From the NCBI GenBank assembly GCA_017406955.1, contig JAFQXM010000012.1, forward strand, positions 1 through 64,000: a DNA stretch of 64,000 nt, in the 5' to 3' direction. Shown here piece by piece: positions 51,995 to 59,307 of this stretch; the stretch's first letter is position 1; every line of letters begins with the position of its first letter. Position numbers and translations under genes: made by a program. The notes under the pieces are model-generated. The model was not told where the DNA came from, searched no databases, and saw only the letters and a program-made list of their open reading frames with translations. This DNA comes from Bacilli bacterium. GTDB lineage: Bacteria; Bacillota_I; Bacilli_A; RF39; UBA660.

Positions 51995-53749
51995 CTATTT
52001 TTTTGTTTTAATAACATCTTTTATATAGTTTACAAACTCTGTAATTGGAACAGTTGTAGTCTCTTTTTCTCCATGTAATCTATAACTAATAGATTCACTA
52101 TCTTTTTCTTTGTCACCTAATATTAAAGTATATGGTACTTTAGCAGTTTGAGCTTCTCTTAATCTATAACCTAATTTTTCATTACGATTATCTAATTCCA
52201 CTCTTACATCTTCTTCATGTAATAAATTATATACTTTTTCAGCATATTCTCCTTGGAATTCTGCATTAACAGGTATTACTCTAACTTGAATTGGAGCAAG
52301 CCAAGTTGGTAAATTACCTTTTGTTTCTTCTAGGTAGTAAGCAATAAATCTATCAATTGAACCAAATACCGCCCTATGAAGAACAACTGGTGTTTTCTTA
52401 CTACCATCTTTATCTACATAAGTTAAATCAAATTTAGCCGGTAAACAGAAATCTAATTGACAAGTAGATATAGTTATTTCATTACCTACTGCTGGTTTTA
52501 CTTGAACATCAAGCTTAGGTCCATAGAAAGCTGCCTCTCCTATTTTTTCTTCATAATCAATATTTAAATCATTTAAAACTTTTCTTAACATATCTTCTGC
52601 TTCATCCCACATTTTATCATCAGGATGATATTTAACTTTATCTTCAGGATCTCTTAAAGAAAGTTCACAATGATAATTAGTTATATTTAACTCATCATAA
52701 CATTCTAATATTAAATCAACTACTCCTTTAAATTCTGAAGCTACTTGTTCTAAAGTACAGAAAATATGAGAATCATTTTGACAGAAAGATCTAACTCTTT
52801 CTATTCCCTTTAAAGCTCCACTAGCTTCATATCTACAATCTCTTGCAATCTCAGCTATTCTTAAAGGTAAGTCTCTATATGAGTGAATATCATTACCATA
52901 TATAACCATATGATGAGGACAATTCATTGGACGAAGTACATATTCTTCATCTTCAACCTCCATAATAGGAAACATTGAATCTCTATAATGATCTAAATGC
53001 CCACTTGTTTTATATAACTCTACATTACCTAAAGGTGGAGTTTGTACATGTTTATATCCTCTTTTTATCTCTTTGTTTCTAATATAAGTTTCTAATTCAT
53101 TCCATAATGTAAATCCATTAGGTAAATACATTGGTAATCCTCTACCTACTAAATCACTCATCATATAGATACCTAAATCTTTACCTATTTTTCTATGATC
53201 TCTTTCTTTAGCTTCTTCTAATTCTTTTAAATGTTTTTCTAAATCTTCTGGATTTTCAAAACATATACCATAAATTCTTTGAAGCATTTTATTTTTAGCA
53301 TCACCTTTCCAATAAGCTCCACTAACTTTTAATAATTTAAAATTCTTTAACTGCTTTACTGTATCTAGATGTGGTCCTCTACATAAATCAGTAAAGTCTC
53401 CCTGAGTATAACAACTAATTACGTTTTCTTCTTCATCCATTCTAGATATTAAATCTATTTTATATGGATCATCTTTAAACATTTCTAATGCTTCTTCTTT
53501 AGATATTTCATTTCTAACTATTCTTTTTCCATCTTTAGCAATCTTTCTCATTTCTTTTTCGATTTTAGGTAAGTCGTCTTCTGTAATAACCCCTTCTCCT
53601 AAATCAATATCATAATAGAATCCTTCTTCTATTACAGGTCCAACCCAAAACTTAGCATCTTTATATAAATGCTTTACAGCTTGCGCAAGTAAGTGTGCAC
53701 ATGAATGATTCATTACACTTAATTTTTCATCTTCTTTAATATTTATCAT
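51995..53749 (-). CDS. thrS: Threonyl-tRNA synthetase lacking the TGS domain
   Basis: Class II synthetase of 584 residues. It starts directly at the editing domain (MNHSCAHLLAQAVKHLYK, residues 13-30, with HxxxH and a later CRGPHL zinc/editing site). The N-terminal TGS (N1) domain of about 60 residues is missing. Catalytic domain: PMNCPHHMVIY (zinc Cys), RIAEIARDCRYEASGALKGIERVRSFCQNDSHIFC (motif 2 area) and VLHRAVFGSIDRFIAYYLE (motif 3). Anticodon domain from about 480. The start overlaps the stop of the small upstream gene in ATGA. A threonine T-box controls the unit. Confidence 0.95.
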   Translation of the reverse strand: MINIKEDEKLSVMNHSCAHLLAQAVKHLYKDAKFWVGPVIEEGFYYDIDLGEGVITEDDLPKIEKEMRKIAKDGKRIVRNEISKEEALEMFKDDPYKIDLISRMDEEENVISCYTQGDFTDLCRGPHLDTVKQLKNFKLLKVSGAYWKGDAKNKMLQRIYGICFENPEDLEKHLKELEEAKERDHRKIGKDLGIYMMSDLVGRGLPMYLPNGFTLWNELETYIRNKEIKRGYKHVQTPPLGNVELYKTSGHLDHYRDSMFPIMEVEDEEYVLRPMNCPHHMVIYGNDIHSYRDLPLRIAEIARDCRYEASGALKGIERVRSFCQNDSHIFCTLEQVASEFKGVVDLILECYDELNITNYHCELSLRDPEDKVKYHPDDKMWDEAEDMLRKVLNDLNIDYEEKIGEAAFYGPKLDVQVKPAVGNEITISTCQLDFCLPAKFDLTYVDKDGSKKTPVVLHRAVFGSIDRFIAYYLEETKGNLPTWLAPIQVRVIPVNAEFQGEYAEKVYNLLHEEDVRVELDNRNEKLGYRLREAQTAKVPYTLILGDKEKDSESISYRLHGEKETTTVPITEFVNYIKDVIKTKK

Positions 53750-54185: not shown

Positions 54186-54956
54186 TTATCTATTATTCCA
54201 AGAAAGTGGAACATTCATTACAGATTGTAATCCATAAAAACCTTGTGTATATCTCATTCTACCATAACTAAAGAAACTACCTAAATCACTACATCTATTA
54301 TCATTAGTAAATGAATTACAATCAAGTAAAGCTAAATGTAGATGTGTTCCATACGCAACACCAGTTGATCCCATATAACCTAACTTATCATTAATAGTTA
54401 CTTCCTTGCCTACATATATGCCACTTTCATATCTAGATAAATGAACATATTGAGAAGTATATAAATTACCATCAATATTGTGATTAACAGTTACAATTAA
54501 AGCTCCTGCATAATCTGTATAAATGCTAGAAATAACCCCATTAGCAACAGGATATACTGCTTCAGCTTCTCCTCTTGGACTAACTATATCTAAAGCATAA
54601 TGTGAATAATTAATTCCTCCACTAATAGCACCCATCTCACAAGGTAGATACCATACTTTATCTTCATTAACAATATTTTTACTTATAACTGGTAAATCTA
54701 CAGCTTGAGGAACCTCACTATTTACTTGTTTTTGATAATTATCTATAATACCAGAAATACCACTCTTCTCTACTTCTTTTTTATTTCCTACATTAGCAAC
54801 TGCCATATCTTTAACATTAATATTTTGATATGTTATATCATAAATATTATCTTCTTGATATAAATATACAAGTATTCCTCCAGAAATAATTATAAGTAAA
54901 ATAGAAAAAGTAATAATAATTTTTCCTCTTAAAATATACTTATCCATCTTAGACAT
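54186..54956 (-). CDS. M23 (LytM-type) zinc peptidase, membrane-anchored
   Basis: Peptidoglycan endopeptidase or a degenerate regulator, 256 residues. One membrane helix (about residues 13-33), then a spacer and the M23 domain (about 115-235). Zinc ligands are seen in NYSHYALDI (HxxxD) and GTHLHLAL (HxH), with QYVHLSRY (His) in between, so the site appears complete. ATG at 54956 follows GGGGTG; a longer frame upstream is not supported. It lies between the RNB-like gene and the T-box. It could be a spore-related protein (SpoIIQ-like), a guess from genome context. Confidence 0.85.
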   Translation of the reverse strand: MSKMDKYILRGKIIITFSILLIIISGGILVYLYQEDNIYDITYQNINVKDMAVANVGNKKEVEKSGISGIIDNYQKQVNSEVPQAVDLPVISKNIVNEDKVWYLPCEMGAISGGINYSHYALDIVSPRGEAEAVYPVANGVISSIYTDYAGALIVTVNHNIDGNLYTSQYVHLSRYESGIYVGKEVTINDKLGYMGSTGVAYGTHLHLALLDCNSFTNDNRCSDLGSFFSYGRMRYTQGFYGLQSVMNVPLSWNNR

Positions 54957-55000
54957 AAAAACACCCCACCGGAATAGGGCATATACTAACATAACTTAAT

Positions 55001-56893
55001 TTATTTGTCAAAATTTAATGTTCTTATTTTCTTCTTTATATTAGCTTTTTCTGCATTAGATATAATATTAGAAGTATTATATACTTTATTATTTAACTTA
55101 CTACAAATACTATCTAATCTAGTCTCTAAATAATTTTTAGTATTATTATCTAACTTTTTATGATCAACTAAATATGTATTAATCAACATCTGATTAATTA
55201 AAGCTTCTATCTTTCTTAATGGAGAATATATTTTAAAATTAAACTTATATAGATCAGATACTTCATCATTACCAATAGTACATATACTAGGATAATTTAT
55301 TTTTTTATCATATTTAAAGAAACTTAAATCAATACCATATATATCTTCTTTATAATTAATAAATTCTGATACATCTTGTCTATTAACTCTAGTATATATA
55401 ACCGGTAAATTTTTAGATATAGTATATTTAGCTATTTCACTTGCAGTTTTAGTATTAATAAAACTAAGCATAGAGTCAGCTATATTATTATTTGTCTCAT
55501 TAATATTTATATAAGGATACGTAATATCTAATAGATTACCTATAGCATCTATTGTTTTTCTATTTTTTATTTTATTTAAATTATTAAAATCTGAAAATTT
55601 TAAATTATCTTTAACATTAACAAGTCCTCTTTTAAAATCAAAATATAATATATTAAAACTTTCATCTACTAAATATTGATAAGCAATTACATCTACATCT
55701 CTACCTTTTTCTAATTTACAATGATTATGTTTATATTTTTTACCAAATAAATTCTTTTTATTTAAAGTTTCTAAAATACTTTTATACTTATCCTTCTCTT
55801 TCATTTTATTATCACTAATAAAACTAGATATATCAGTGGCATATATAGTTAATAAATACGTGTTATTATCTCTTTTCTCAATAGAAATAGCATTTTCAAA
55901 CATCTTAGCTTCATCATTATCAATAGTAATAACATGTCTATCTTTCATATCAATTCTAGAATAATCTTTATCTATACCAACTAAACTACTGATCGCATCA
56001 AAATCTATATTTTTATAGTACTCATCATCTTTATCATCTAAAAAATCTACTTTAGTACCTATTTCATATCTTCTAATTCTCTCTATAATATCTGCGATAA
56101 TATAATCCCTTTTATCCTCATCATAATCCTTTAATACTATAGAATTTATAAAACTTCTCATCTTTTTATAAAAAGTTTCATCTATTACATGATCAGTAGC
56201 TAAAGAAATATTTAATGAAAATAAATCTATTACTTTATCATAATATATTTTTTTATAATAATTATTTGAATTAACTAAATTATTATAATATTTATCTAAT
56301 ATTTTTTCAAAAACAAATACATCATCATAATCTTTAATAAAACTAATATTAGGAAAATTATTAAATAATGATTCAAGTAATGAAATATTCTTAATATCAA
56401 AAACTACATCTTTTAATAAAGAAGATAATTTATTTTCACTTATAACTTCTATTTTATTATCATAATCTATCATACCTTTTAAATTATCTATTATTTCTTC
56501 TATTTGATAATTAATAGTTAAAAGTAATACACTATTATCTATACTATTTTTAGTAGGATCATCTTTAACATTATTAGTGGTTTCTACAATTATTTTTTTA
56601 CTAATATTAAAAAGATTATCTATTAGTCTCATAGTATAATCTTCACATAAATTTATTTTACCCGGACTGTAACCAAAATATTTAATAACTTTAGATAAAT
56701 ACTTATTATTCTTAACTTCACTTTCAAAATTATAATTATCTAATTTTTTACTAAAATATTCAATTAAAAAATCCATTAAATCTATATCTTTTTTTAGATT
56801 AAAATGGTTCTTTAAATCTTTAAAGTTATAGTTAGTTTTTTGTTTTAAGAGTTTGTCTAATTCTTTAGTATTGTTGGTAGAAGTAGATTCCAT
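55001..56893 (-). CDS. RNB-fold (RNase II/R-like) protein with lost catalytic aspartates
   Basis: A 630-residue protein. Residues 1-310 are helical and unassigned. From about 313 an RNase II/R catalytic domain is recognisable: RIDMKDRHVITIDNDEAK...NAISIE (compare R.D.R...TID..DAKDFDDAIS). Later come RDVDVIAYQYL (compare DRLALS), MLSFINTKTASEIAKYTISKNLPVIYTRVN, and YSPLRKIEALINQML (compare TSPIRRYxDLxxHR). Of the four catalytic Asp, only Asp325 survives; the others are Met331, Glu333 and Asn334. S1 and cold-shock domains are absent. The protein is probably not an exonuclease and may bind RNA. It starts three bases after dnaI. Confidence 0.7.
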   Translation of the reverse strand: MESTSTNNTKELDKLLKQKTNYNFKDLKNHFNLKKDIDLMDFLIEYFSKKLDNYNFESEVKNNKYLSKVIKYFGYSPGKINLCEDYTMRLIDNLFNISKKIIVETTNNVKDDPTKNSIDNSVLLLTINYQIEEIIDNLKGMIDYDNKIEVISENKLSSLLKDVVFDIKNISLLESLFNNFPNISFIKDYDDVFVFEKILDKYYNNLVNSNNYYKKIYYDKVIDLFSLNISLATDHVIDETFYKKMRSFINSIVLKDYDEDKRDYIIADIIERIRRYEIGTKVDFLDDKDDEYYKNIDFDAISSLVGIDKDYSRIDMKDRHVITIDNDEAKMFENAISIEKRDNNTYLLTIYATDISSFISDNKMKEKDKYKSILETLNKKNLFGKKYKHNHCKLEKGRDVDVIAYQYLVDESFNILYFDFKRGLVNVKDNLKFSDFNNLNKIKNRKTIDAIGNLLDITYPYININETNNNIADSMLSFINTKTASEIAKYTISKNLPVIYTRVNRQDVSEFINYKEDIYGIDLSFFKYDKKINYPSICTIGNDEVSDLYKFNFKIYSPLRKIEALINQMLINTYLVDHKKLDNNTKNYLETRLDSICSKLNNKVYNTSNIISNAEKANIKKKIRTLNFDK

Positions 56894-56895
56894 TA

Positions 56896-57801
56896 TTAAT
56901 TCCTCCTGTTTTTACTAACCAACTCCATATTTTCTGTTAATTGTTTTATTCTTTCTATTATTCTTCTAGCTTTAACTTTATCTACTCCTGAAGTTGTAAT
57001 AGATAAAGATTTTTCTAATTCTTTTAATGTTAAATTAGAAGTAAAAAATGTAGGTAAATTACTTTCCATACGATATTGAAGTATTGGTCCCAAAACTTCA
57101 TCTCTAGACCAACTACTACAATTTTCTGCCCCTATATCATCAAGTAATAATAATGAAACTTTCTTAATATATTCAAACTTTTCTTTGTAATCAGTTTGAA
57201 AAGATGCTTTTAAACTTCTTAAAAATTCTGGATAATAAACAAGTACAGATTTAACATCTTTTTTAGCCATTTCATTAAATAAAGCTGCAATTAAATAAGT
57301 TTTACCTGATCCAAATGATCCATTTAAATATAATCCTTTAGGTTTATCCTTTTTATCATAATTCTTCATAAACTCATTAAAATATTTAAGTATAGGAAGT
57401 CTAGCAGAATCATCTTTATATACATCTTTAAATGAAGCTTCACTAATTTCTTTAGGCATATCAAATAATTCTATATTTTCTTTATATAAATTAGCTTTAA
57501 TTTCTTTTTGTTTTTTAGGACATGCGATATATGAAAAAGTAATCATATTATTATCTACTTCTGGTTCATATCTATATCCACACATTTTATTTTTACAAGT
57601 AGTAATACTTCTACATTTACTACAATTTTTATATTCAACGAAACTATCTTCTAGGCTAGATGTATATTTCATTAATATATCATCTTTTAAATTTATACTA
57701 TCAACATACTTTTTAAATTCTTTATCACTACAAGCATCTTGATAGTCATGCTTTAAAGCAGTTTCATCTACTCTATCAATAACATTTTTTACTTTCTTCA
57801 T
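56896..57801 (-). CDS. dnaI: Helicase loader DnaI
   Basis: AAA+ ATPase that loads the DnaB/DnaC helicase. 301 residues. N-terminal zinc-binding part with C60, C63, C69 and C74 (CSKCRSITTCKNKMC). AAA+ domain from about 125 with Walker A GSFGSGKT (161-168), Walker B LLLLDDIG (217-224), sensor 1 FTSNLT, and RRIIERI near the end. Length matches Bacillus DnaI (311). In Bacillus dnaI lies upstream of thrS as well, with ytxBC between; here an RNB-like gene and an M23 gene take that place. Confidence 0.95.
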   Translation of the reverse strand: MKKVKNVIDRVDETALKHDYQDACSDKEFKKYVDSINLKDDILMKYTSSLEDSFVEYKNCSKCRSITTCKNKMCGYRYEPEVDNNMITFSYIACPKKQKEIKANLYKENIELFDMPKEISEASFKDVYKDDSARLPILKYFNEFMKNYDKKDKPKGLYLNGSFGSGKTYLIAALFNEMAKKDVKSVLVYYPEFLRSLKASFQTDYKEKFEYIKKVSLLLLDDIGAENCSSWSRDEVLGPILQYRMESNLPTFFTSNLTLKELEKSLSITTSGVDKVKARRIIERIKQLTENMELVSKNRRN

Positions 57802-57835: not shown

Positions 57836-58492
57836 TTATTTTATTTGTCTACTATTTATATTAATCTCTTCATATTTAGGATCTATATAACTATTATAAT
57901 CATAATCTTTTAATAATTTAAGAGCTAATTCTTTTTCATCTGCTATAGTATGAACTCCTAGAAAGTGAGCATTCTCCCCTTTTGCAAATACATAATAACC
58001 TCTAGGATAATTATTATTAGTATTATCATAATTATCATATACTATATGATATGTAGGATCATATAAATACCATTTATTATTTACATATATTTCTAAAAAT
58101 ATATGTCCTCTCATAATTTCTTTATCTTCTAAATCTAAATCTATACTTTTTAACCAATCAATATGAGCAGTTTCTACATAAATAGTAGGAATGTTTTTTT
58201 CTCTTAGAATAGAGCATATCATAAAACCAATATCAGAACATCCTGAAAAAGTTTTACTATTAAATATATCTATAACAGTTCTTTCAAATTTTATAGTACT
58301 AGTATCTCTTGTAAAAGTATTATAAAATATTTTATCTAATTCTACTAAGTCATTAATATTATTTATATCAGGAATACATTTACAAAATTCTTTTATTTCG
58401 TCATTAATTTTACTTTGTCCATTATTGGTTAAATATTTATTATTCATACAACCACATCCTACAGATATTATATCATAAAATTTAATTATCAT
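57836..58492 (-). CDS. Transglutaminase-like superfamily protein
   Basis: A 218-residue protein with the Cys-His-Asp triad of the transglutaminase/cysteine-protease fold: FSGCSDIGFMICSILRE (Cys about 89), MRGHIFLEIYVNNKWYLYDPTY (His about 134, Asp about 149). Bacterial members are mostly uncharacterised peptidases. ATG at 58492 overlaps the stop of the upstream dinD frame (ATGA). An alternative ATG at 58447 with TAGGATG before it would give 203 residues and a more ordinary start. No signal peptide. Confidence 0.75.
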   Translation of the reverse strand: MIIKFYDIISVGCGCMNNKYLTNNGQSKINDEIKEFCKCIPDINNINDLVELDKIFYNTFTRDTSTIKFERTVIDIFNSKTFSGCSDIGFMICSILREKNIPTIYVETAHIDWLKSIDLDLEDKEIMRGHIFLEIYVNNKWYLYDPTYHIVYDNYDNTNNNYPRGYYVFAKGENAHFLGVHTIADEKELALKLLKDYDYNSYIDPKYEEININSRQIK

Positions 58493-59307
58493 TTTAAATT
58501 TTTATTTCCTTTTTCTAATTCTTTTAAACTCCTATTAGGAGTTGGTAAATCTTCTGGCATAGTACCTCCTAATCTTTTAATACTATTTCTAATCTCTTTA
58601 CCTACTTCATAGTGAACAGAATTTGCAGTATATTCATTATCAACATTACACCTTCTTAATTTAGCATCTGTTTGAGCAATTCTAAATATATTATCTGCAA
58701 GTTCTTCGCTTCCCATATTATCAAGTATATCTTCTCTGTATCTCAATCTTTTCCTTTTAAATATATCATCTGCTGTTTCACCATTATAAAGCCCTTTATA
58801 CCCTGCATTATGAAATCTAGCTAAGTCTTTTACTCCACTTTTAACTGCGGTTTTATTTAGACTATAATTACCGCTTTTTGCTTGTCTTCTCCTATATATT
58901 CTCTTTTCATCTTCGGTAAGTTTATTATATTCTCTTTCACTTAATTCTTGTTTTCTTGTTTGAAGAGCAAAATATGTTTTAGCTAAAGCAATTACTTTTT
59001 TTCTAGGATCACAATTTAAAACTATTAAGTAACATGCATATCTTGATAACCTATAATCTTGTATTTTTCTTTTTGCATTCTTAGCTAATTTTATCAATTT
59101 ATTGGTGTCAATAAAATGATAAGAAACATCATAATTACTGTTTTTACAATTATCCATAGCAATTTTAATAATTCTATGAAAATTTTGCCACAATGAATAT
59201 TCTAACACTTCCATTAACTATCTAGCATACCAATATTCATTACCTTCTTTATCTATATGTTTAATATCTTCAAATATTTTATCTGTATATCCTTTTATTT
59301 TATCCAT
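58489..59307 (-). pseudogene. dinD: dinD (DNA-damage-inducible protein D) interrupted by an in-frame TAG
   Basis: From ATG at 59307 (AGGAGGT before it) the frame reads MDKIKGYTDKIFEDIKHIDK...NEYWYAR, then TAG at 59218-59220, then continues in the same frame as LMEVLEYSLWQNFHRII. Downstream it is a full DinD: RKIQDYRLSRYACYLIVLN, AKTYFALQTRKQELS, GYKGLYNGETADDIF, ILDNMGSEELADNIFRI, and GGTMPEDLPTP. The stop replaces the Glu of the usual YWSARELxxxLxY, so a single base change (GAG to TAG) suffices. ATG at 59214 is three bases after the stop and could restart translation. DinD of E. coli opposes RecA activity. The gene begins next to the comEC stop. Confidence 0.85.

Follow-up and report, generated by a model that had tools for sequence, protein, structure and literature searches.

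An RNase R-derived family of putative pseudonucleases, mostly encoded behind dnaI, in uncultured Bacilli

Here, we describe a protein family of uncultured Bacilli (GTDB family UBA660, RF39) in which a copy of the exoribonuclease RNase R has probably become a pseudonuclease that no longer cuts and works as an RNA-binding or adaptor protein. The member analysed in detail is encoded in the window, by which we mean the whole 64,000-nucleotide stretch of contig JAFQXM010000012.1 that was examined. The descent, architecture, active-site loss and synteny of the family are documented below, and a role with DnaI is suggested by gene position alone.

The open reading frame comprises 630 codons on the minus strand, from an ATG at 56893 to 55001, and the ATG lies 2 nt after the dnaI stop codon, with a perfect ribosome-binding site upstream (Table 1). 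The original prediction had described a long frame with a good start, situated between the helicase loader and a wall peptidase, and both descriptions agree with the annotation obtained here. For the downstream M23 peptidase gene, the ATG at 54956 is more likely the start than the mechanically assigned 54992. Upstream of dnaI, window positions 58489-59214 encode a homologue of DNA damage-inducible protein D (NF008573, 289 bits), adjoined by a comEC-like gene. No RNA elements were found near the pseudo-RNase R gene, the sole match in the window being an L21 leader elsewhere (RF00559, 13178-13251, minus strand, 37.5 bits). A phage origin of the gene was rejected after a tblastn search against 50,697 phage records returned no match. 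The 1.14 Mb genome also encodes a Spo0A C-terminal domain (G000:C7:14128-14439, 143 bits), which makes a sporulation-type programme possible in the host; no observation links the pseudo-RNase R gene to such a programme.

Table 1 Features of the pseudo-RNase R locus in the window.
Feature	Position	Strand	Basis or remark
dnaI-adjacent pseudo-RNase R gene, 630 aa	55001..56893	-	ORF; family profile E 2.7e-164; clade of 53
N-terminal region (aa 1-304), all-helical by prediction, standing where RNase R has its cold-shock domains	55982..56893	-	
RNB core, residues 305-605	55079..55981	-	Pfam, RNase R profile match, Foldseek matches to RNase R, Dis3 and Ssd1
Former active-site motif, residues 325-334	55892..55921	-	D-N-D-E-A-K-M-F-E-N vs DxxxxxDxDD
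Arg560, equivalent of the conserved SPxRR Arg (R500)	55214..55216	-	kept in 51/53 members
Shine-Dalgarno AGGAGG, perfect	56902..56907	-	within dnaI 3' end, 8 nt 5' of the pseudo-RNase R ATG
dnaI (helicase loader), upstream neighbour	56896..57801	-	NF006505 286.7 bits, cut-off 228
M23 peptidase gene, downstream	54186..54956	-	PF01551
Terminator-like hairpin, pseudo-RNase R/M23 interval	54961..54982	-	weak: 1 found vs 0.8 expected
thrS, far-side landmark in many relatives (dnaB-dnaI-X-thrS)	51995..53749	-	

The Pfam scan of the window protein placed RNB (PF00773) at residues 313-446 with 44.5 bits (cut-off 29.3) and gave no other domain at E<=1. RNB was matched in all 22 family members scanned, the window protein among them, and neither cold-shock (CSD) nor S1 domains appeared in any of the 22; the RNB core and the missing S1/CSD modules that the original prediction had read from the letters were thus recovered by profile. 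A family profile of 22 relatives matched B. subtilis RNase R (8cdu), its best match among solved structures, over positions 284-652 (E 2e-77), and profile-profile comparison with RNase R extended from the linker preceding RNB to the end of RNB (100%, E 1.5e-74). The same genome encodes an intact RNase R on another contig, with CSDs, RNB, S1 and the signature D-D-D-D.

The approximately 300 residues before the core, which the original prediction did not mention, constitute a separate region conserved along the family. The model of this region from a relative is all helical (pLDDT 78), and searches for a matching fold stayed within the chance range for helical models (Foldseek best E 0.057, VIA-align best Z 8.8). 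Ankyrin or HEAT-like repeats were considered and found no support in the structure searches. Some RNase R sequences match family profile positions 7-45, but any likeness between the opening ~50 residues and the helix-turn-helix (HTH) of RNase R is suggestive at most (hhalign 22%). A full-length structure model from 7 sequences was poor (pLDDT 55).

Of the four catalytic Asp in RNB enzymes, the first, third and fourth (D201, D209 and D210) are thought to coordinate Mg, and the 3'OH is contacted by the second; an enzyme missing any one of them is predicted to be inactive as a nuclease (PMC8097288, PMC12320835). Replacing one Asp with Asn inactivates B. subtilis RNase R (PMC10901742). All four were present in 37/37 aligned RNase R sequences. 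The window protein keeps the first as D325 and carries Met331, Glu333 and Asn334 in place of the others, as originally predicted, and its active site points to a protein that is very probably not nuclease-active. Across the 53 members, the first Asp (D201 column) is invariant and ranks first in conservation among 277 core columns, the Arg equivalent to R500 ranks third, and the second Asp (D207 column) falls to rank 198. The latter position holds Asp in 2 members, Glu in 18 and neither in 33, and parsimony on the tree requires ~8 changes among Asp, Glu and other residues. The resulting signatures are DxDD (20), DEDD (18), DxEx (6, the window type), DxED (6), DDDD (2) and DxDx (1).

The branch with D-M/L-E-N, formed by the window protein, same-genus L050 and L051 from another genus, has some of the most eroded sites: the clamp tyrosine equivalent to Y253 is lost, and the equivalent of Y313 is Phe in 2/3. 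As to whether the substitutions would be conserved in relatives, loss of the second Asp is conserved across many genera, whereas the exact M/L-E-N pattern is confined to the nearest relatives, with D-L-E-N in L050, L051 and L058 (the last two from other genera). The original prediction had further held that relatives keeping all four Asp would speak against it; there are two such among the 53, neither beside dnaI.

A FastTree phylogeny of RNB cores placed the 53 members in a single clade (support 0.997), apart from 42 other RNB sequences, among them RNase R of the same GTDB family and of further families in the class. Because the clade stands separate in the RNB tree, one origin from RNase R in the UBA660 lineage is the simplest reading. 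A protein search of the window's GTDB family, sampled at about one genome per genus, recovered relatives measuring 590-690 aa over their full length, headed by a same-genus orthologue with 54% identity, and a profile search added further relatives. At the class level (296 genomes, 22 other families included), the full-length family at E<=1e-60 was seen, among the matches listed, in the window's GTDB family only; the listed matches from elsewhere were RNase R-type and started at profile position >=85, nearly all after 190. Five proteins of 767-858 aa directly behind dnaI (L118, L128, L135, L136, L139) had no or weak Pfam matches and no recognisable Asp motif, and are remote homologues of the family as a group (hhalign 99.65%); the profile comparison makes them an extreme offshoot of the family's gene. 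Near dnaI, two long RNB proteins outside the clade keep DDDD (L130:2114-4438, 775 aa; L115:1818-4322, 835 aa). A 666 aa RNB protein, likewise outside the clade (L047:3068-5065), has DTDD and appears to have lost its second Asp independently.

The dnaI neighbourhood of the window turned out to be conserved in relatives: 42/53 members, from many genera, lie directly behind dnaI, mostly at a spacing of -19 to +28 nt, and in all 42 the second position is occupied by a residue other than Asp. The common order is dnaB-dnaI-X-(M23)-thrS, with dnaB assigned by position and sequence. In the 141-genome family sample, 132 genomes have dnaI, and a full-length member directly follows it in at least about 35 of the 132, the downstream sequence having been examined in ~90. 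The other 11 members are found away from dnaI, two of them directly behind lepA with DCDD (L109:4534-6360, L111:3972-5795). One locus has dnaI, then a 576-aa pseudo member and, 7 nt on, an intact 694-aa RNase R with DDDD (L116:980-4795), and another has two tandem members of 503 and 651 aa behind dnaI (L039:2450-5929). Two same-genus genomes, G002 and G003 (the latter 93% complete), keep comEC-dnaI-M23 with dnaI-M23 intervals of 52 and 90 bases and are missing the gene, which is therefore dispensable there. Eight genomes of the GTDB family (L114, L119, L131, L137, L138, L143, L148, L153) have a 971-978 aa gene ~280-380 nt after dnaI, and the one scanned encodes the DNA polymerase III alpha subunit (dnaE).

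Frames are intact in all 53 members, which span about 500-690 aa (498-690). Between the window gene and its same-genus orthologue, dS was 0.84 and dN 0.34, giving a dN/dS of 0.41 (N-terminal part 0.34, RNB-containing half 0.47), compared with 0.17 for DnaI, 0.33 for M23 and 0.10 for ThrS; other within-genus pairs are near saturation at synonymous sites. The pseudo-RNase R gene is thus fast-evolving yet constrained. Intact frames together with this dN/dS indicate that it is not a pseudogene, and on these grounds we reject decay as the main explanation; the original prediction had also argued against decay.

The explanation that we favour is an RNase R-derived pseudonuclease. Early in the history of the GTDB family, an RNase R copy lost both cold-shock domains and S1; a helical region of ~300 residues precedes its core, and its gene now mostly follows dnaI in close translational proximity. 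Nearly all members have lost the second catalytic Asp, and the window's branch the third and fourth as well. Because the ligands of the 3'OH and of the catalytic metal are missing from this branch, it would no longer degrade RNA from the 3' end; the original description of a catalytically dead RNB protein fits the D-M-E-N site at the level of sequence. Less certainly, the retained RNB funnel, whose D325 is invariant and whose R560 is nearly so, may still bind a ligand that is RNA or resembles a nucleic acid, and docking on a partner may fall to the helical N-terminus, so that a non-cutting RNA-binding or adaptor protein would be made together with DnaI. Against RNA binding, we count that the usual RNA-binding modules are gone and that the full-length model is poor, and the absence of the gene from two sister genomes counts against the explanation as a whole.

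A different possibility is that the protein acts in replication as a partner of DnaI/DnaB at helicase loading, the RNB fold being reused for single-stranded DNA, for example by binding the unwound strand or by contacting the loader through the helical N-terminus. The tight and widespread linkage to dnaI, often as dnaB-dnaI-X-thrS, is consistent with such a factor, as is the presence of dnaE next to dnaI at other loci of the GTDB family. We nevertheless consider it unlikely, given that 11 members lie elsewhere, including the two behind lepA, and that dnaI occurs without the gene in many genomes, the two of the same genus included; the retention of dnaI and M23 in these two argues against an essential replication role. 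Moreover, in B. subtilis the dnaI-thrS interval is occupied by ytxB-ytxC, which is no replication gene pair (PMC8208703), so a position there need not mean a role in replication. Recruitment of the RNase R-derived pseudonuclease family as a nucleic-acid-binding regulator that controls helicase loading or the DnaI operon, with all stages of active-site loss preserved in extant relatives, seems similarly doubtful to us.

It is rather improbable that the protein is still a nuclease with an altered 3'-end preference, one in which the missing second Asp has cost it the recognition of the 3'OH and the metal site is left in place. The DEDD and DxDD members retain the metal-binding Asp, the Arg and mostly the clamp tyrosines, and fungal Dss1, an active enzyme, carries Glu instead of the second Asp (PMC8097288), a pattern shared with the 18 DEDD members. 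Part of the family may therefore still cut: DEDD members may be active, and a changed nuclease specificity is possible in DxDD and DEDD members. The window branch, however, also has D209E and D210N, besides the loss at Y253 and the Phe at Y313, and these extra losses make activity unlikely there; in B. subtilis RNase R, one Asp-to-Asn change suffices to abolish it. We judge it very improbable that the gene is a disappearing relic with relaxed constraint, retained only because it is translated with dnaI. The gene does evolve faster than its neighbours (identity between G000 and G001 is 54%, against 76% for DnaI and 87% for ThrS), is missing in sister genomes, and in a few genomes (L132, L156) is represented after dnaI by short or broken versions. 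A relic is nonetheless hard to reconcile with the open frames of all 53 members and the measured dN/dS, with two core residues that stay nearly invariant while the catalytic ones drift, or with the perfect ribosome-binding site.

Among known systems, RNase R (domains HTH, CSD1, CSD2, RNB and S1) is the parent by tree and shares the RNB core and the preceding linker with the clade, which differs in having no CSDs or S1, a new helical N-terminus and lost active-site Asp. The fungal Ssd1/Sts5 proteins (Dis3L2 branch; 7am1) likewise have an RNase II-family fold whose catalytic Asp were lost repeatedly while the gene was retained (PMC8097288, PMC8934651). Ssd1, however, keeps the cold-shock domains thought to carry its non-nuclease function, and the window family is without them; it is bacterial, RNase R-derived and dnaI-linked, and has an independent origin. 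It is not Ssd1 proper, as it has no CSD and its nearest affinity in profile comparisons is to bacterial RNase R. The mitochondrial exoribonuclease Dss1 (DxxxxxELDD) resembles the DEDD members at the second Asp, but Dss1 is active and the window protein is without two further Asp. Finally, YtxB-YtxC occupy the same dnaI-thrS interval in the B. subtilis operon dnaB-dnaI-ytxB-ytxC-thrS (PMC8208703). YtxC as the N-terminal part was rejected, with no PF08812 match at E<=1 in the 22 members scanned, including the window protein, and no YtxC was found in 149 genomes of the class.

RNase II-family pseudonucleases have been described for fungi, and we found no bacterial one in the literature searched. 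Sites within the clade grade from intact (DDDD) via conservatively changed (DEDD) to fully lost, a natural series that lets one ask when the RNB fold stopped cutting and what replaced cutting. If the dnaI link is functional, a large group of uncultured Bacilli would have an unrecognised player beside the replicative helicase loader.
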